Positions 1-16,318 of a DNA stretch of 36,065 nt are shown here, piece after piece. A program made the position numbers and the translations under genes. Origin of the DNA: an uncultured Elusimicrobia bacterium. Its GTDB lineage: Bacteria; Elusimicrobiota; Elusimicrobia; Elusimicrobiales; UBA9959. The notes under the pieces are model-generated. The model searched no databases. It saw only the letters and a list, made by a program, of their open reading frames with translations, and was not told the DNA's origin. Where the stretch lies: NCBI GenBank assembly GCA_903879915.1, contig CAIRNJ010000005.1, positions 1 through 36,065 on the forward strand, given 5' to 3'. Each line of letters begins with the position of its first letter. Position 1 is the first letter of the stretch.

Positions 1-3000
1 AGGTGCTCCCTCCCACGGCCGCGTCCAGCCAGGCCTGGCCGGCCTGCCAGTCAGCGCCGTTCCAGAAATAGCCGTCCGCGAACCGGGAGATGGTCAGCAC
101 CACGGAAGAGACCGACACGTCATCCGTGGCGGCGCCTGAGATCTGCGGCAGCGAATTCGCCGCCGAATTATTCCCCGGCTGCAGTATTTCCGCCGCGGGC
201 GGCGTGCCCATATACGTGAAAGTGCTGGAGTTAACGGCGGGACCGGAATCATTCCCCGCCAGGTCGTAGCTCTTCGACATTACGACGTAAGTAGTGCCTT
301 CCAGCAGGGCAGCGTTGCTTATGCCGGCATAGGTCCAGGCGGCGGTGCCTGCAGCCAGGTTCCAGGCTTCGGAAGCCCCCCACGCGTCGCCCGACCAGTA
401 ATTATTGTCTGACCAGCGCCGCACGCTTACCTGTACCTGCGCGATGCCGCCCGCGTCCGTCGCTATGCCCGAGACGTAATTGAACGCGGGAACCTGGCCG
501 GAGGCCGGCATTATGACGAACGAGACCGGCGGGGTAATATCATAAGTGAACAGGCCGGTGGAATAGTCCACCGACCAGAGGCCGGAATCGTCCAGCGCTT
601 TCGCCGTCACTGTGTAGGAAGAATCAGTAACCCAGGCGGGCAGCCCGCCGGTATAGGTCCAGGAGGGGCCTGCGAAGTCAGCGGGCAGCCACGTGCGCCC
701 AGCCGCCCAGCCGGCGCCGTTCCAGAAATAGTTGTCCGAAAGCCTGGTCAGCGACACTACCACCGAGGAAACCGCGATATCGTCGGCCGCCGTGCCCGAG
801 AGCTGTGTCAGCGAAGTAAGATAAAAATTATCCTGGGGCTGAAGTATGGCCGTAGTGGGCGGTAAGTGCAGCAGGGTTATCCCGCCTTCGGCCGTATACA
901 CATAGGCTGTGGCCACGCCCTCATTGTTCAGCGCCCGCACGCGGCCATAATAAGTGGTGCCTTCCGCAAGGCCGGCCAGCAATACCGTGGTGCCGGCACC
1001 GGCGCCGCTGGAAGTCAGCACCCCGAAGCCGGACGACACCGACACCTCGTACTGGTAGGTGGTCCAGCCCGGGTTCGCGCCGCCCTGCCAGTTCAGGGCC
1101 GCGGTGGAATACGATATCCCGGCGAACGCCACGGAAGACGGGGCAGCCGCCAGGGTAGCCGCCGCGGCCGCGTTGGACAGCGCGCTGTAATTGGCGTACC
1201 CGTCTTTGGTCCACAGCCGGAAATAATAACTGGTATTTACCTCCAGCCCGCCCAGCGTATATTGCTGGCCGCTGCCTGGGTTCACGCCCGTGGTGGAAAT
1301 ATTCAGCTGCGCGGCCGCGGTGGACCAGACAACGCCTGTGAAGGTGCTGTATTGTATGGTGAAAGTGGAACTATTAAGCGCGCCGCTCAGGCCGTCATCG
1401 CCCGGCGCCGTCCAGCTAAGCGTAATGGCGCCGGTGGACGCAGCCGCGGCCGCAAGGTCCGCCGCGGCTGCCGGGGGAATAGTGAAATCCACGGTGAAGC
1501 CGGTCTGCGCGGCATTGGCCAGGTTGCCCGCTTTATCCCGGATGGAAGCGTCCAGCGCATGAACGGCCTGAGTAAGCCCCGTAAGCTGCACAGCGGCCGA
1601 CGAAGTAAAAGCCGTGACCGCGCCGGGGTCCACGATCGCGCCGTCCAATTTCACTGCCAGGCTGGCCAGGTCAAGCCCCGCGCCGCCGGTATCCGAGTAA
1701 CTGACGACAGCCGTGGTGGAAGTGTAGTTGAAGACGCTGCCGTTGGCCGGCTTGATTATCGTGATCATCGGCGTGGTCAGGTCCACCGTGAAAGCGGCCT
1801 GGACCGCGTTGCCAAGATTGCCGGCATTATCCTGCACTGACGCGTCCAGCGTATGCGCAGACTGAGATAGCCCCGCAAGCTGCACCGCGGCCGAAGAAAC
1901 ATAACGCGTGAACGCGTCCGTGGAAAGGACCACGGAGTCCAATTTTATCACCAGGGTCGAGGTGCTGAGCCCGGAACCGCCGGTATCAGCATAGCTCACT
2001 ACGACCATGGTAGAGGTGTAATTCAGGAAACCGACGCCGGCCGTAAGGGTCGGCGAGGTCAGGTCTACAGTGAAAGAAGCTTGAACAGCGGCGGTCAGGT
2101 TGCCGGCCTTATCCTGTATGGACGCGTCCAGCGTATGCGCCGTCTGCGCCAGGCCAGTAAGCTGCACCGCGGCCGACGACACGTAACGCGTGAACGCGGC
2201 CGTGGAAAGCGCCACCGAGTCCAGCTTGATCACCAGGGTTGAAGTGCTGAGCCCCGAACCGCCGGCATCAGAATAGTTAACCACCACCATGGTAGAGTTG
2301 TAATTCAGGAAGGCGCCGCCAGCCGGCTGTACCAGCGTAACGGACGGCGGGGTCAGGTCAACCGTGAAGGCGACCTGTACGGCATTGGTCAGGTTGCCGG
2401 CCTTATCCTGTATGGACGCGTCCAGCGTATGCGCCGCCTGCGATAACCCCGTAAGCTGCACCGCAGCCGACGAAACATAACGCGTGAACGCGGCCGTAGA
2501 AAGCGCCACCGAGTCCAGCTTTATCACCAGGGTGGAAGTGCTGAGCCCCGAACCGCCCGCATCAGAATAGTTAACGACCACCATGGTAGAGTTGTAGTTC
2601 AGGAAACTGCCGCTGACCGGCAGCGCCACGCTCAAAACCGGCGGCGCGCCATCGTAGGTGAATACGCTGGTAGAGTAAGCTAAAGACCACGCGCCCGCGT
2701 TATCCCTGGCTTTGGCTATTACCGTGTACGACGAGCCGCTGACCCAGGCGGGAACGCCGGCATAGGTCCAGGAGGAACCGTTCAGGCCGGCATACAGCCA
2801 GCTAGGGCCCGGCGCCCAGGCGGCACTGTTCCAGGAATAATTATCCGATGCGCGGACTATCGACAGCGCTACCGAGGAAACCGCCACATCGTCCGCGGCC
2901 GTGCCTGAAACCTGCGTCAGGGAATTCACGAACGAATTATTCTGGGGCTGAAGTATGGCCACCGTGGGCGGATTATTAGGTACCAGGGTCGTCCCGGCTC

Positions 3001-6000
3001 CTGAAGTATACGCATAGGCGGTAGGAACACCCGCGCTGTTCACGGCCCGCACACGGCCGTAATAATCGATCCCGGAACTCAAACCGTACAGCCAGCCGGT
3101 AATGCCGGTACCTGCCCCGCTGGACGCTACCGCCCCGAAACCGGACGATACGGACAGTTCGTACTGGTACTCGGTCCAAGCCGGGTTTGCCGCCGCCTGC
3201 CAGCTCAGGGCGGCGCTGGAATAGAAAACTCCGGAGAAATCCGCGGAGGACGGCGCCGCCGCGAAAGTGGCCGCGGCGGGCCCGTTGGAGACAGCGCTCC
3301 AGTTTCCGCGGTCATCCTGGGTCCACAGCCTGAAATAATAACTGGTGTTGACCGCCAGTCCGCCGACCGTATAGCTCTGTCCGCTCCCGGGGTTCACGCC
3401 TGAGGTGGAAATGGTCAGCCTCGAGACCGAGACGGCCATGGAAGACCATTCGACGCCGGTGAAAGTGGAGTATTGTATGGTAAAAGTAGACTCGTCCAGC
3501 ACGCCGGCCATGCCGTCGGCGCCGGGCGCGGTCCAGTTGAGCGTGATCGCTCCGGAGGACGCCGGCGCGGCCGCTAGATCGGTCACGGCCGCCGGGGGAA
3601 AGCTTGAATCCACGGAAAAATTGCTCTGCGCGGCGTTGGCAAGATTGCCGGCCTTGTCGCGGATGGACGCGTTCAGCGTGTAGAAGGTCTCCCGGAGGTC
3701 GGCAAGCACCACCGCAGCCGAAGAGGCGTAGACCGTTACCGAGCCGGAGGCTACTTCGGCCCCGTCCCATTTTACCACCAGGCTTTCCGGGTCCAGCCCC
3801 GCGCCGCCGGCGTCCGAATAGTTGATTATGGCGGTGGTGGAGAATTGAAGCACAAAGACGCTGCCATTCGCCGGTCGGACGATGCTGATGACCGGCGAAG
3901 ACAGGTCCACCAGGAAGCCGGTCCGGGCGGCGTCGGCCGGGTTGCCGGCTTTATCCAGCATGGACGCGTCGAGCGTGTGCGCCCCCTGCGTCAGGCCCGT
4001 GAGCTGCACCGCGGCCGAGGAGGAGTAACGCGTGAACGCGGCCGTGGAAAGGACCACCGAGTCCAGTTCTATGACCAGCGTGGAAGCGTCGGGACCGGAG
4101 CCGCCGGTATCGGAATAGGATACTACCGCCGCGGTCGATACGCTGTTCAGGAAGCTGCCGTCGCCCGGAGCCGCAATATGCAGGACCGGCGGCGCGGCGT
4201 CGTAAGTGAACACGCTGGTAGAAGAGACCAGGGACCATTTTCCGGTGTTATCCATGGACCTCGCCACTACCCCGTATGATGAACCCGTAGCCCAGGCGGG
4301 AACGCTGTCATATGTCCAGGAAGAACCGTCCACGGCGGCAGTCAGCCAGGCCTGGCCGGACGCCCAGAAGGAACTGTCCCAGAAATAGTTGTCTGAAAGT
4401 CTGATTATCAACAGCTCCACCGCTGAAACGGGAACATCGTCCGCGGCGGTACCGGAAACCTGCGCCAGGGAATTCGTAAAAGAGTTATTCAGCGGCTGAA
4501 GTATGGCCGGCGGCGAAAGGGTCCTGCCCGGCCCGGGAGCATACGCATAGGCGGTAGGAACGCCGGCGTTATTTATGGCCCGCACGCGGCCATAGTAAAT
4601 CGTCGAATCAGTTAAACCGTACATCCAGCCTTCGGGCCCAGGGCCCGCGCCGCTGGACGCTAACACGCTGAAACCCGGCGACACCGACAGCTCGTACTGG
4701 TAGGTGGTCCAGCCGGGATTTATTCCGCCATCCCAGCTCAAGGCCGCGCTGGAATACTCCAACCCGGAGAACGCCACCGAGGAAGGCTCCACGGCCAGGG
4801 TCACGCCGAGGTCGGTCATGACAAAGCCCGCGTCCGGTGAAGTAGAAACATAGCCGTAATAGGTGGTATTCGCGTCCAGCCCGGCGAAACCGAAGACGGC
4901 GGCAGTTGTAGAGGCGCTGGACACCAGCGCGCCGGGATCAGGCGCGGTAGCAAGCCCCACATAATACAGCGTGCCCGGTCTGAACGTGGTGTCCCAGTTC
5001 ACCGTTATGGCGCCGACGGTCAAGCCGCTGAAGGCGGCGGGGATCAAGTCGCCGTCGTTCACGCGGACCAGCACGCTCCTGCTCGCGCCGGGGTAGCCGG
5101 GCACATCCGCTTCGCAGGTAACGCTGTAGGTACCCGTAGCATCCGGCGCGGTCCACACCGCGGAAGAAACATAGGCGTTTATGCTGCCGCTGGCCGCGCT
5201 CCAGGTATAGGACGGTTCGCCGTTGTCCGGGGCCAAAGCCGAACATTCAACGCTGACCTCGCCCCCGCTGCCCACCGTATCCGGCGCCGCGGTCAGGCTT
5301 GTTATCTCAGGCCCCGAAAGTACCAGCACCTGCGCCGCGCGCAGCGCCATAATGCCGGGCTTGCCGTCCGACACCCCGCAGCTTACCTGGTACCCGCCGG
5401 TGGACAGGGGCGCCGTCCAGGTCACGTACGCGCCGCTGCCGCTTATCGTGCTGCCCTCCACAGCGGCCCAGCTGTACGCCAATTCGTCCCCGTCGGCGTC
5501 GCTCGCCGCGCAGTGCAATACCGAGGCAGAACCCGTGGACACTATAGCCGGCTCGGCCGTTAGCGCGCTTATCTCCGGCGGGCTGTTCACCAGGACCTGC
5601 GCGCTCGCGCTAACGCTGTCCTGTCCCGCAACGCTCGCTTCGCAGGTGATGCTGTATGTCCCCGTGGCATCCGGCGCCGTCCAGACGGTTGTGGACGACC
5701 CGTTAACGGCGGGCAGGCTGCCGCCGTCCGCGCTCCAGGAATAGCTTATTTCGGCGTTCTCCGGGCCCGTAGCCGCGCACACCGCGCCGGCTTCGCCGTT
5801 CCTGGCCACCGTACCAGTGGTCAGGCCTACGTGCAGTATCTCCAGCGGAGCGATATAAACGTACACCAGCGTAACGGCGGCGTCGGTCACGTAAGAATAG
5901 GACGTTGGGACGCCTTCGCTGTTGACGGCCCGCACGCGGCCGTAATAAGTGGTGCCTTCGATTAATCCGGTGACCCAGCCGGTGCTTGCCGCAATTATGC

Positions 6001-9503: not shown

Positions 9504-10328
9504 ATGACCGCACCAGATAACCCGTTCGCACAGATGGAAGACCCCGAGCGCCGCTTCGACAGGATGGCGCGGCTGGTGGGCCCGGAGGCCATAGCGAAGC
9601 TGAAAGCCGCGCACGTGATGGTGATCGGCTGCGGCGGCGTAGGCTCATGGGCCGCCGAGGCGGTGGCGCGCGCGGCCGTGGGCCGGATAACGCTTATCGA
9701 TTTCGACACCGTCTGCATCCGGAACTTCAACCGGCAGCTGCAGGCTTTGACCGGCATGATAGGCAGGCCCAAGGCGCCGCTGCTGGCCGAGCGCCTGCGC
9801 CTGATAAACCCGGAAGCCCGCGTGGACGGCATAGCCAACTATTTCAACGATACTACCTGCGAGACGCTCATGAAGGACCGGCCCGATTTCGTGATAGACG
9901 CCATCGACCACGTCACGTCGAAATGTTTTCTTATAGATTACTGCCGCGAGCGGGGCCAGCCCTTTATAGTTTCCACCGGCTCGGGCGGGCGCCTGGACCC
10001 CACGCAGGTGCGCGTGATGGACCTGGGCAGGACGGAGATCGATCCCCTCGCCCGCGCTATCCGCCAGATCCTGAGGGAAAAATACGCTTTCCCGAAAAAA
10101 GGTGATTTCGGCGTCCGGGCGGTCTGCTCCGTAGAACTGCCTCTTAAGCCGCACGCCGCCATGGAGCAGACCGACTGCAAGGCCGGCTGCCTGTGCCCGC
10201 AGGGCGAGAACGACTTCCAGAGCTGCACTAAAAAAAGCGTGGTGGTGGGCACGGCCGGTTTCGTCACCGGGGCGTTCGGCATGGCCTGCGCCGCCGCCGC
10301 CGTAAAACATATCTGCGCCGCCGCCTGA
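9504..10328 (+). CDS. tcdA: tRNA threonylcarbamoyladenosine dehydratase (TcdA/CsdL)
   Basis: E1-like/ThiF-fold enzyme that adenylates t6A37 of ANN-decoding tRNAs to form cyclic ct6A. Visible features are the nucleotide loop GCGGVGSWAAEA (residues 42-53), the IDFD acidic motif (65-68), NRQLQA (76-81), the VIDAID motif (130-135) and TGSGGRLDPT (158-167), all diagnostic of TcdA rather than MoeB or ThiF. At 274 residues it has the usual length. Residues 225-241 contain four cysteines (C225, C229, C231, C241), not present as a cluster in the E. coli protein as I recall it; they might bind metal. The Shine-Dalgarno site GGGAGGA precedes the ATG by a few bases. A strong terminator follows. Confidence 0.93.
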   Translation: MTAPDNPFAQMEDPERRFDRMARLVGPEAIAKLKAAHVMVIGCGGVGSWAAEAVARAAVGRITLIDFDTVCIRNFNRQLQALTGMIGRPKAPLLAERLRLINPEARVDGIANYFNDTTCETLMKDRPDFVIDAIDHVTSKCFLIDYCRERGQPFIVSTGSGGRLDPTQVRVMDLGRTEIDPLARAIRQILREKYAFPKKGDFGVRAVCSVELPLKPHAAMEQTDCKAGCLCPQGENDFQSCTKKSVVVGTAGFVTGAFGMACAAAAVKHICAAA

Positions 10329-10342
10329 CCCGCCAATAAAGC

Positions 10343-10378
10343 CCCCCGCGTTCCTTACGGGAACGCGGGGGTTTCATT
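10343..10378 (+). terminator. Strong hairpin terminator of tcdA, probably bidirectional
   Basis: A perfect 12-base stem (10343-10354 with 10360-10371), loop TTACG, followed by TTTCATTT. On the minus strand the stem is followed by GGCTTTATT, so it can also end the DUF4097 transcript, whose stop lies 30 bases away. Confidence 0.85.
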
Positions 10379-10400
10379 TCCTGCGGCGGTTATGCGGCGC

Positions 10401-11324
10401 TTATTTCTTCACGGAGCCGCTTACGGTCTTTATCGAAGGGTTCTTTATGTCGCTGCCGGTGTAGTCTATGTCCCCGCTCACGGTCTTGATAACGGCGCTC
10501 TCGGCCGCCGTCTCCCGGATCAGCACGTCGCCGCTGATGCTCTGGGTGAGCAGCGAATTCAGCTGCGATTCCCTTATCTCCACGTCCCCGCTCACCGTCT
10601 TGGCCGAGACCTCGGCGGTATTCTTCAGCCTTTCCACCAGGATGTCGCCGTTGACGCCTTTGAAGACCGTGTCGCTCCCGGTCGAGAAATCGCCGATCGT
10701 TATGTCGCCGTTGACGCTCTCGGCGCTCAGGCGGGCCAGCTTACCGGGCAGATAGATCTTCGCGTCGCCGATAAGGCTTTTGCTTCCGCTTTTGGTCTTC
10801 AGCTTTATCTCGCCGTCCTCGAAGAACGCCTCGGTATCGCCTTCTTCCTTCTCCATGATCTCCAGCTCGGCCTTCGCGCCGGGGCTGTCGTGCCCGATTA
10901 TGGTCAGGTCGCCGTTAAGCGTTTTTACTTTAAAGAAATCATAGGCGTACTTATCCGCCGAGATCTCCACTTTCCGGCCTGTCAGGTCCTTGATCTCGCT
11001 CAGGCCGCTGAAAGCGCCCTTCAGCGCCCCGCCTACGGTCTCGCCGATGGCGCCGGCCATCTTTTCCCCCCTGTGCTTCCTGGACCAGAAGCCGCCCTCG
11101 GCGCCGGCCAGGCTTTTAATGAACGGTATGCCGAGTATGATGGCCGTAAGGGCGATCATCGTTCCGGCCACTATGCCCAGGGCTATTATGCCGATCATGC
11201 CCAGCCACAGGTATTTCAAAGCCGTTTTGGCGTCGGCGCCCATCGGCCCCACCTGGTTCACCAGGTAAACGAGCCCCACTACGAGTATCGAAAGTACCAC
11301 CAGCTCTATCAGTTTCCTTATCAT
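10401..11324 (-). CDS. Membrane-anchored DUF4097 beta-repeat protein
   Basis: A 307-residue protein with two hydrophobic N-terminal segments (about residues 5-23 and 37-68), a basic stretch (SRKHRGEK, 81-88) and a C-terminal ladder of seven short repeats from 134 to 307 (K-T-L-N-G-D, SVNGDI, GVNGDI, TVSGDV, SISGDV, TVSGDI, TVSGSV). This is the DUF4097 'putative adhesin' solenoid pattern. The Shine-Dalgarno site AAGGAG lies seven bases before the ATG. It is the last gene of the sigma-factor unit and has its own copy of the ECF-type promoter, so it is probably the main target of that sigma factor. Function is unknown: an envelope-stress sensor, a scaffold or an anti-sigma partner are all possible. 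No zinc-finger anti-sigma motif is present. Confidence 0.85.
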   Translation of the reverse strand: MIRKLIELVVLSILVVGLVYLVNQVGPMGADAKTALKYLWLGMIGIIALGIVAGTMIALTAIILGIPFIKSLAGAEGGFWSRKHRGEKMAGAIGETVGGALKGAFSGLSEIKDLTGRKVEISADKYAYDFFKVKTLNGDLTIIGHDSPGAKAELEIMEKEEGDTEAFFEDGEIKLKTKSGSKSLIGDAKIYLPGKLARLSAESVNGDITIGDFSTGSDTVFKGVNGDILVERLKNTAEVSAKTVSGDVEIRESQLNSLLTQSISGDVLIRETAAESAVIKTVSGDIDYTGSDIKNPSIKTVSGSVKK

Positions 11325-11379
11325 AAGTTTCTCCTTGGTTTCACTTGCGCCGGGCCCGGGTTTTCCGGCCCTTCACTAC

Positions 11380-11410
11380 ATATGACACGCGGCCCGGGAA
11401 TTTGTTTCAC
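11380..11410 (-). promoter_or_regulatory. ECF-sigma-type promoter before the DUF4097 gene (copy A)
   Basis: On the minus strand GTGAAAC (11404-11410), 15 bases, then GTGTCATA (11381-11388), followed by GTGAAGGG. TGAAAC at -35 and GTCA at -10 with about 16 bases between them is the usual ECF pattern. The same boxes, with identical spacing, occur at 12175-12205. A GC-rich stem-loop (GGGCCGG/CCCGGGCCC, AAAA loop) follows in the leader. Confidence 0.7.
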
Positions 11411-11416
11411 TCTTTT

Positions 11417-11950
11417 TTAAAAATCTATTTTTTTCCTTACCAGCTCCTTAGCGCGCAGCAGCTGGATCTTCACGGTGTTGATCGGGATGCCGAGGCTGTC
11501 GGCTATTTCCTGGTAGGACTTTTCCTCGAAGTAATAGAGCTTTATTACCACCTTATACTTAACAGGTATTTCCTCTATTATTTCCTTTATCCTCGAGAGC
11601 ACCAGCTGCCTGTCGAACTCCTCGTCGGCCGCGCTGGCTTCCTCCGGGATGGTCTCGGCGAAGCCGTCGTCCAGCTGCGTCTCGCGGCCTTTCACCCTTT
11701 CGGACCAGTTGATGCTGAGGTTGTAAGCTATCCGGTAAAGCCAGGAGGAGAACTTCGAATCCCCCCTGAACTTCTCTATGTTCTCGTAGGCTTTTAAAAA
11801 AACGTCCTGGGTGATGTCCCGCGCCTCTTCCTCGAACCTGACGTAATTCTTCACCACGTTAAAAATGAAGTCCTGATGCCTGAGCATGAGCTCGCCGAAG
11901 AATTCTTTTTCCCCTGCGGCTATCCTTTTTATCAGGCTTTCTTCATCCAT
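11417..11950 (-). CDS. ECF-type RNA polymerase sigma factor
   Basis: A 177-residue sigma-70 family protein containing only regions 2 and 4. Region 2 spans about residues 20-90 (DITQDVFLKAYENIEKFRG, then FSSWLYRIAYNLSINWSER). An acidic linker follows (residues about 98-112). Region 4 runs to the C-terminus with the helix-turn-helix YQEIADSLGIPINTVKIQLLRAKELVRKKI. This is the RpoE-like ECF architecture. No Shine-Dalgarno site is seen; the start lies 8 bases after the stop of a 50-residue ORF, so translation may be coupled. The next gene is a DUF4097 protein. Promoters of ECF type precede both the small ORF and the DUF4097 gene, implying autoregulation. No conventional anti-sigma gene is adjacent. 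Confidence 0.93.
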   Translation of the reverse strand: MDEESLIKRIAAGEKEFFGELMLRHQDFIFNVVKNYVRFEEEARDITQDVFLKAYENIEKFRGDSKFSSWLYRIAYNLSINWSERVKGRETQLDDGFAETIPEEASAADEEFDRQLVLSRIKEIIEEIPVKYKVVIKLYYFEEKSYQEIADSLGIPINTVKIQLLRAKELVRKKIDF

Positions 11951-11958
11951 ACGGAACT

Positions 11959-12111
11959 TTATTTGCCGGCGCAGACCGCGTAGAAACCGGTTCCATTTTC
12001 CCGCGGCGAGAAAATATATACGTATTCTATATCTTTCACGCGGAGCCCAGCGGTGCCTTCATTGCCCCGCCCGCTGATCGAATCCACGAACGCTTTAATT
12101 ATTTTTGCCAT
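11959..12111 (-). CDS. 50-residue hypothetical protein preceding the ECF sigma gene
   Basis: A short ORF with an excellent Shine-Dalgarno site (AAGGAGAAAGAT directly before ATG), the same leader motif as the DUF4097 gene, and a stop 8 bases before the sigma start. It encodes a 50-residue soluble protein beginning MAKIIKAFVDSISG, with a central VKDIEYVYIFSPRENG stretch and the C-terminus FYAVCAGK. It holds one Cys (C47) and no signal peptide or membrane segment. I do not recognise a family. Its position first in the ECF-promoted unit makes a role in controlling the sigma factor, or as a coupling leader peptide, plausible; both are inference. Confidence 0.65.
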   Translation of the reverse strand: MAKIIKAFVDSISGRGNEGTAGLRVKDIEYVYIFSPRENGTGFYAVCAGK

Positions 12112-12174
12112 ATCTTTCTCCTTGGGTTCTTTAGGACCGGGCGGCTTCTGCCGCTTTTAGCGTCCCTTCACCAG

Positions 12175-12205
12175 ATATGACACACAACTACTGAAAATGT
12201 TTCAC
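12175..12205 (-). promoter_or_regulatory. ECF-sigma-type promoter before the small ORF and sigma gene (copy B)
   Basis: On the minus strand GTGAAAC (12199-12205), 15 bases, GTGTCATA (12176-12183), then GTGAAGGG a few bases on, as in copy A at 11380-11410. The -35 box overlaps the TGA stop (12202-12204) of the upstream membrane-protein gene. A small GC stem (GCGGC/GCCGC) lies in the leader before the Shine-Dalgarno site. Confidence 0.7.
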
Positions 12206-12747
12206 TCCCGCTTCAGACGGCCCGCAAGGGTTACCCCGGCGCAGGCGATGATCAGGTTCAGGAATATTATGGGATACTCCCCGAAATAACGCCTTATGAG
12301 CAGTATCGGCAGTATGGCGGAAGCCATCACTTTCACGGCGGGATATCTGCGCCGGATAAGGCTGACCGCGGCCGCGGCGATAAAGATAACGTCCAGTTCC
12401 CAGACCTTAAAGCGCAAGCCGAAAAGCGCCAGGAAAACGGCCCATAAAGCGCAGGCCAAAGCCGCAGTATAAGCCCGGGCCGGTTTCCAGAAAGAATCGT
12501 CTCCCAGGCGCGCCTGCCCGCAGTAGACCGCCGCCGCCATGGCCGCGGCCAGGCCCAGTTTGAACGAACACCTGCCGATGCAGGCGAGTATGGTCTGATG
12601 CCGCACCACGCCCATAAGCATCAGGAAGCCCAGCATGAACAGGATAGCCGAGCGGGCCGCTTTAAGGTCAAGCACGGAGTCCAGCCGGGAAATACGAAAC
12701 GATCCTCCCGCCAGCGCCCATTGCGCGGAAATTATAACACCCAGCAC
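12202..12747 (-). CDS. Polytopic membrane protein, hypothetical (start uncertain)
   Basis: From the GTG at 12747 this gives 181 residues with about five hydrophobic segments (for example SAILFMLGFLMLMGVV, AAAMAAAVYC, and the C-terminal IIFLNLIIACAGVTL) and Arg-rich loops, so an inner-membrane protein. No family is recognised. The GTG start looks too late: the frame stays open upstream and encodes another hydrophobic segment (TVLAGIILNLCIFIAVTSA). No ATG, GTG or TTG is available there, but a CTG at 12859-12861 has a GGAGAAGAGG Shine-Dalgarno site just before it and would give 219 residues. It lies after the nucleotidyltransferase gene on the same strand, probably in one transcript. Confidence 0.6.
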   Translation of the reverse strand: MLGVIISAQWALAGGSFRISRLDSVLDLKAARSAILFMLGFLMLMGVVRHQTILACIGRCSFKLGLAAAMAAAVYCGQARLGDDSFWKPARAYTAALACALWAVFLALFGLRFKVWELDVIFIAAAAVSLIRRRYPAVKVMASAILPILLIRRYFGEYPIIFLNLIIACAGVTLAGRLKRE

Positions 12748-15472: not shown

Positions 15473-16318
15473 TTATACGCCCGTCAGCATTTTTACCCCC
15501 GCCAGCAGCGCCAGCGCTCCGAACGCCAGCTGCAGCTTCCCGGAGCGGGCCCGGTACAGCGCGTAGATGCCCAGGAACGAGCCCAGCAGCACCCCCGTAA
15601 CTATCACGGCCGTCAGTTCCGGCGGGATCAGGCCCTTGCACCAGTACACGTAGGCGCTGGCGGCCGCAGAAACCCCGATGATGAAATTGCTGGTGGCGGC
15701 CGCGGCCTTCATGGGCACGCCGCACAGCAGGTTCATCACCGGCACCTGCACTATGCCGCCGCCTATGCCCAGCAGCCCGGAAAGCGAGCCGGCGAAAAAA
15801 GAGATAAAGGAGGCCGGGACGATGTTCTTTACCGAATAAGGGGTATGCGCCGCCAGCGCGGGGTCGAAGAAAGCCGAGTCGAACGCCGTAGCTTTGCGCG
15901 CGGGCGCGGGAGCGGCTTTGACGGCGGTCTTTTTCAGCGCCGCGCCGCCTTTCAGGAACATCAGCGCCGAGACCGGAAAAAGCATAAGGGCGAACAGCAG
16001 CCGCAGCGCGGCGGCGGGCAGGTAGCCGGCGGCCAGCGCGCCGGCCAGCGAGCCCAGCGCCGTAGTGACCTCCAGCGTTATCCCCAGCCTGATATTGGCG
16101 AGCCCCCGCTCAACGTTCACGGCCGCCACGGCGCTGGAGGTGGCCACGATGGCCACCAGCGAAGCGGCCACGGCCTGGTGCATGGGTATTTTCAGCGCGA
16201 GCACCAAAAACGGCACCATAAAAATGCCGCCGCCTATGCCCAGCGCGGAACCGGCCAGGCCGATGAACGTCCCGAAGAAGAAAAGGACGGAAAAATTAAG
16301 CGCGGTTAACTCTATCAT
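15473..16318 (-). CDS. TauE/SafE family anion exporter
   Basis: A 281-residue polytopic inner-membrane protein with the duplicated TauE/SafE signature: LAGSALGIGGGIFMVPFLV (residues about 21-39) and GLLGIGGGIVQVPVM in the second half. Each GIGGG loop is followed by a conserved Pro and a hydrophobic helix. A charged, Ala/Pro-rich central loop separates the two halves. Family members export sulfite, sulfoacetate or other small sulfur or organic anions; substrate here is not determined. The start is 18 bases after the patatin stop and the stop is one base before DUF1634, so these are one operon. Confidence 0.9.
   Translation of the reverse strand: MIELTALNFSVLFFFGTFIGLAGSALGIGGGIFMVPFLVLALKIPMHQAVAASLVAIVATSSAVAAVNVERGLANIRLGITLEVTTALGSLAGALAAGYLPAAALRLLFALMLFPVSALMFLKGGAALKKTAVKAAPAPARKATAFDSAFFDPALAAHTPYSVKNIVPASFISFFAGSLSGLLGIGGGIVQVPVMNLLCGVPMKAAAATSNFIIGVSAAASAYVYWCKGLIPPELTAVIVTGVLLGSFLGIYALYRARSGKLQLAFGALALLAGVKMLTGV

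Follow-up and report, generated by a model that had tools for sequence, protein, structure and literature searches.

Sigma factors of the SigW, RpoE and AlgU type share a transcript with a class I anti-sigma factor and control large regulons. Single-target ECF circuits are already known as well: the ECF41 circuits of Bacillus licheniformis and Rhodobacter sphaeroides have one target and no partner anti-sigma factor, and are experimentally supported (PMC3426412). The Toastrack (DUF4097) domain, for which a review of PSP systems names 4QRK and 4OPW as examples of the fold, has been proposed to provide a platform for assembly inside the cell, close to the membrane, and some of the contexts concerned have a linked sigma factor (PMC11237479). 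Searches of the open-access literature found nothing published on ECF sigmas in Elusimicrobia or on the sigma-Toastrack pair described here.

The sequence studied (the window) is a 36,065-nt stretch of contig CAIRNJ010000005.1 from an uncultured Elusimicrobia bacterium (GCA_903879915.1; 3.37 Mb genome). It very probably encodes an ECF sigma circuit that is self-contained and serves almost only one target, with two promoters and a Toastrack protein as its output. The order on the minus strand is P1, micro-ORF, sigma gene, P2, DUF4097 gene:

12176..12205, minus strand: P1, predicted ECF-type promoter element GTGAAAC-N15-GTGTCATA, upstream of the micro-ORF/sigma operon
12164..12171, minus strand: conserved initial transcribed sequence GTGAAGGG after P1 (column counts, 13 aligned P1 copies)
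11959..12111, minus strand: micro-ORF, 50 aa, with Shine-Dalgarno AAGGAG and conserved C-terminus; probable translational-coupling leader
11417..11950, minus strand: ECF sigma factor, 177 aa (Sigma70_r2 and Sigma70_r4_2), with no Shine-Dalgarno of its own
11381..11410, minus strand: P2, predicted ECF-type promoter element between the sigma and DUF4097 genes (22/22 genomes)
11347..11376, minus strand: predicted 5' end of the P2 mRNA, where GTGAAGGG precedes, or lies inside, a G+C-rich hairpin (15/17 close orthologues)
10401..11324, minus strand: gene for the Toastrack (DUF4097) protein, 307 aa product (DUF4097 profile and predicted structure)
10343..10371, no strand assigned: long, G+C-rich, terminator-like inverted repeat between the convergent DUF4097 and ThiF-family genes

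The two promoter elements

An earlier note on this DNA had described two near-identical ECF promoters flanking a sigma gene. Both copies are present on the minus strand, at 12205-12176 and 11410-11381 (the ends given there were off by at most 1 nt), with exactly 15 bases between GTGAAAC and GTGTCATA; both continue with ATNTRGTGAAGGG, and in both AAGGAG precedes the next ATG. The sigma gene (11950-11417), the small ORF before it (12111-11959) and the DUF4097 gene after it (11324-10401) are also where the note had placed them. The boxes, TGAAAC and TGTCAT, lie at 12204-12199 and 12182-12177 in P1, and at 11409-11404 and 11387-11382 in P2.

In the aligned copies (13 of P1, 17 of P2), TGAAACA and GTGTCA are invariant; A(T/A)TT comes after the -35 box, the remainder of the 16-nt spacer is variable, and GTGNRGGG is conserved at the expected transcript start. 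The consensus for P1 and P2 is TGAAACATTT-N11-GTGTCATAT. One further P1 copy, in G045, has a spacer one base longer. The AAC that is the signature of ECF -35 boxes (PMC3426412) is present, TGAAAC being invariant in all 30 aligned copies, while the -10 box has GTGTCATA / TGTCAT in place of the typical, not obligatory, CGT. No sigma-70-like promoter was found at 10300-12300. Comparison across genomes strongly supports P1 and P2 as functional ECF-type promoters.

Two details of individual copies can be recorded here. The TGA of the P1 -35 box (12204-12202) doubles as the stop codon of an upstream ORF (12747-12202; 181 aa, hydrophobic, no Pfam match). Both spacers in G002, that of P1 and that of P2, start with AAATTCCCGG rather than the usual ATTTT (L165, G002:C102:14799-14827 and 15601-15629), a likeness suggesting that local conversion or copying may occur.

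Exclusivity of the element

The window contains two perfect matches, against 0.26 expected even when up to three mismatches are allowed. In the 3.37 Mb genome, TGAAAC-N16-TGTCAT occurs at exactly two sites, P1 and P2, and a search for a longer form of the element with up to three mismatches gave no additional site. Across 295 genomes of the phylum (at most one mismatch) there were 32 matches, 31 of them at the module, vs. 3 for reversed control patterns; four of the 31 are from other genera, and each of these precedes a divergent Toastrack gene. Chance or coding constraint can be rejected on these counts, and the earlier suggestion of a functional element, which random scatter in coding DNA would have contradicted, survives.

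A wider regulon was sought in 10 genomes with up to three mismatches; the four extra matches, vs. seven control matches, are not credible. Nor did the 295-genome scan yield a third target above control, though one with a weaker box may exist. The Toastrack gene thus appears to be the only detectable target besides the sigma gene itself, for which reason "main output," as the earlier note called the DUF4097 protein, is too weak a term. The genome encodes seven further ECF matches besides the module sigma.

Conservation and natural variation

The genomes compared are MAGs. Sigma orthologues in 17 genomes, from the genus and those closest to it, share at least 67% identity, the next relatives falling to 37% and below; the named nearest loci, at 67–85% sigma identity, are all in Elusimicrobia MAGs. 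Among 59 genomes of the family, the sigma orthologue, the Toastrack orthologue and the element are found in the same 22, and P2 precedes the DUF4097 gene in every one (22/22, divergent element forms included). A Fisher test on this distribution (22/0/0/37) gives 1e-16, a value to be read in light of the relatedness of the genomes; because of it, the variety of flanking contexts counts for more. Flanking genes vary over at least nine contexts, through which sigma, P2 and Toastrack persist, with Toastrack the only partner gene conserved throughout; the circuit is kept intact across six genera despite changed surroundings. Outside Elusimicrobia, the sigma's closest relatives share at most 39% identity with it, and the flanks examined there contain no relative of Toastrack.

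Two loci stand somewhat apart. G004, with no sigma orthologue and neither gene complete, has a lone element at a contig end (L181, G004:C164:258-286), followed by a truncated Toastrack-like start (MIWKLI); this could be a remnant or an assembly break. In G248, the Toastrack gene is followed by a second ORF that by eye resembles another DUF4097-type repeat protein (L185, G248:C246, locus 2553-3027).

P1 is less constant than P2. Of the 21 genomes that could be tested, 14 have it before the sigma operon; it is absent in G007, G014, G248, G082, G205, G237, and G239. The autoregulation proposed earlier would therefore not be a universal property of the sigma. Three of the genomes lacking P1 are also rearranged: in G205, 23 kb separates the sigma gene from Toastrack; G237 has the pair in divergent orientation; and in G239 they lie ~1.5 kb apart in opposite orientations. 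In each case the element stays with Toastrack, which marks P2 as the invariant target, and in G205 linkage alone cannot explain its retention. The boxes themselves have changed in some of the genomes lacking P1: G205, G082, and G237 have the divergent form GTGTCTTA before Toastrack, and the G239 element is TGTAACATTTT-N10-GTGTCTAA, with TGTAAC at -35. Sigma self-activation looks clade-restricted, and P1 was apparently gained later, in the clade to which the window's genome belongs, the alternative being its loss in other lineages.

The sigma factor and the Toastrack protein

The sigma factor has Sigma70_r2 (residues 22-82) and Sigma70_r4_2 (120-169) domains and no other, and the 177-residue protein ends after region 4 with no C-terminal extension. 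With sigma2 and sigma4 alone, joined by a short linker, it belongs with the ECF (group IV) sigmas. AlgU, SigW, and RpoE are its best-matching families and solved structures, at scores far below the SigW/RpoE equivalog cut-offs. A profile search detected no anti-sigma domain in the module proteins. That this sigma recognizes the P1 and P2 boxes is suggested by correlation, the perfect co-occurrence of gene and element.

The DUF4097 protein matches its profile at 46.1 bits (curated cut-off 22.9). In its predicted structure, two long N-terminal helices are followed by a variable linker of low confidence and then by a C-terminal beta-helix that is predicted confidently. Foldseek matches (3pet, 3ljy, 4qrk, 4opw) have E-values of ~1e-5, with low TM-scores and a membrane part of low confidence; these are fold matches only, with no sequence relatives among PDB entries. 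Two N-terminal hydrophobic segments are found in all 17 orthologues, and only ~4 residues precede the first membrane helix. Two membrane segments and an N-in start would place the beta-helix domain in the cytoplasm, a predicted orientation that agrees with the general argument made for Toastrack proteins (PMC11237479). Class I anti-sigma proteins, in contrast, have an N-terminal four-helix ASDI domain (PMC7406223), for which the Toastrack protein has no room; it also has no anti-sigma profile match.

The micro-ORF and RNA features

In 12 genomes, a micro-ORF of 40–53 aa lies between P1 and the sigma gene. Its C-terminus is conserved as K[ED]I[EQ]YxYIFxPxxxGxGFxAVC, ending ..AVC(A/V)G(K), and among 199 phylum genomes it is confined to this module. 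It is absent from G045 and G005, where P1 directly precedes sigma. For most pairs dN is less than dS, in a short stretch where some synonymous sites are unusually conserved; the predicted structure of the micropeptide is of low confidence. In 11 of the 12, a gap of 6–15 nt separates its stop codon from the start of the sigma gene (8 nt in the window), and in almost all genomes the sigma start has no clear Shine-Dalgarno, which together suggest translational coupling. The simplest reading is that sigma translation is probably coupled to that of the micro-ORF; its product may possibly also be a functional or arrest peptide.

At the 5' end of the predicted Toastrack mRNA, 15 of 17 orthologues have a G+C-rich hairpin, with differing sequences, which could possibly serve as an mRNA stabilizer. 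Single-sequence folding is suggestive (mean z of -2.25 for P2 vs. -0.35 for P1, with mononucleotide shuffles); alignment-based folding of the P2 hairpin was uninformative as to covariation and lends it weak support, and no known RNA family was matched.

A possible circuit and its alternatives

The identity of the element, its conservation, its exclusivity, and its perfect co-occurrence with the sigma and Toastrack genes are plain from the sequence. In the circuit favored here, the sigma would direct RNA polymerase to P1 and P2. Transcription from P1 would yield the micro-ORF and sigma, with sigma translation coupled to that of the micro-ORF, and so give positive feedback; transcription from P2 would yield a membrane-anchored Toastrack protein with its beta-helix domain facing the cytoplasm. 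The signal would be envelope stress, and by analogy with LiaG, LiaX, and LiaF the Toastrack protein would act at the inner membrane, most likely in envelope stress, presumably as the effector. More tentatively still, it could also dampen or tether the sigma, closing a negative loop.

This last step can be taken further, to a Toastrack protein whose main role is to regulate the sigma: anchored in the membrane, it would be an anti-sigma-like sensor whose cytosolic domain binds the sigma, with P2 providing negative feedback and the signal sensed at the membrane. Its perfect co-occurrence with the sigma, its position next to it in most genomes, its expression from the sigma's own predicted promoter, and its combination of transmembrane anchor and predicted cytosolic domain would all fit, as would the proposed near-membrane assembly platform in sigma-linked contexts (PMC11237479), and no other conserved gene is a candidate anti-sigma. 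However, no anti-sigma domain is detected, there is no space for an ASDI domain before the first membrane helix (PMC7406223), and in G205 the two genes are 23 kb apart; we regard this as a serious possibility, but the less likely one. The most elaborate version, a minimal closed sensory circuit in which Toastrack is both sensor and feedback inhibitor of a dedicated ECF sigma, representing a new, non-ASDI class of anti-sigma factor, and a coupled leader micropeptide sets sigma synthesis, is speculative and somewhat more doubtful again.

The other alternatives concern the elements themselves. They could conceivably be operator sites for another regulator, with the sigma gene merely one of its targets: the element is long, and its conservation reaches the initial transcribed region (GTGARGGG), beyond what a minimal ECF promoter needs. 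This seems improbable, given that two boxes at 16-nt spacing, with no palindrome or repeat, resemble an ECF promoter, that the presence of the element tracks the sigma orthologue perfectly, and that the module contains no further conserved regulator. A recent local duplication, or a chance similarity of no function, would suit the very similar P1 and P2 spacers of G002, but the boxes are invariant while spacers and flanks diverge, the element is exclusive to the module, and P2 is conserved even where there is no P1; conservation already refutes this reading, and we give it practically no weight.

Comparison with known systems

As in the ECF41 circuits, there is no partner anti-sigma gene, and the detectable targets are the neighboring gene plus, if co-transcribed, the sigma itself. 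ECF41 sigmas have a fused C-terminal regulatory domain, a TGTCACA -35 box, and a COE (carboxymuconolactone decarboxylase/oxidoreductase/epimerase) target; here, in contrast, there is a bare sigma2-sigma4 protein, a TGAAAC -35 box, and a Toastrack membrane protein as target. With neither the extension, the box, nor the target, this sigma would work like ECF41 and not be a member of it. SigW, RpoE, and AlgU, the best-matching families and structures, share the AAC-type -35 box and predicted positive autoregulation, but here no anti-sigma gene was found and there are two promoters only.

One prediction study put the share of autoregulated ECFs at about 55% (PMC8103513), which makes P1 by itself nothing out of the ordinary; what is unusual is a circuit that is nearly closed, with two promoters and a Toastrack output. 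Conservation alone yields a complete, testable assignment of sigma, promoters, and target in a phylum for which no ECF study was found. The absence of P1, the relocation of sigma, and the change of the -10 box to GTGTCTTA or GTGTCTAA make a ready-made test set for sigma-promoter specificity, and so compact and apparently orthogonal a promoter pair could serve in synthetic circuits.

The Toastrack proteins of lia/PSP systems (LiaG, LiaX, LiaF; PMC11237479) likewise have the Toastrack fold C-terminal to transmembrane helices, a predicted cytosolic location, and a linked transcription regulator. Unlike those systems, the module has no PspC, LiaI-LiaF-TM, two-component system, or PspA; it has instead a dedicated ECF sigma with its own promoter pair. 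A near-single-target ECF circuit with a Toastrack output would give the lia/PSP envelope-stress toolkit a direct link to an ECF sigma.
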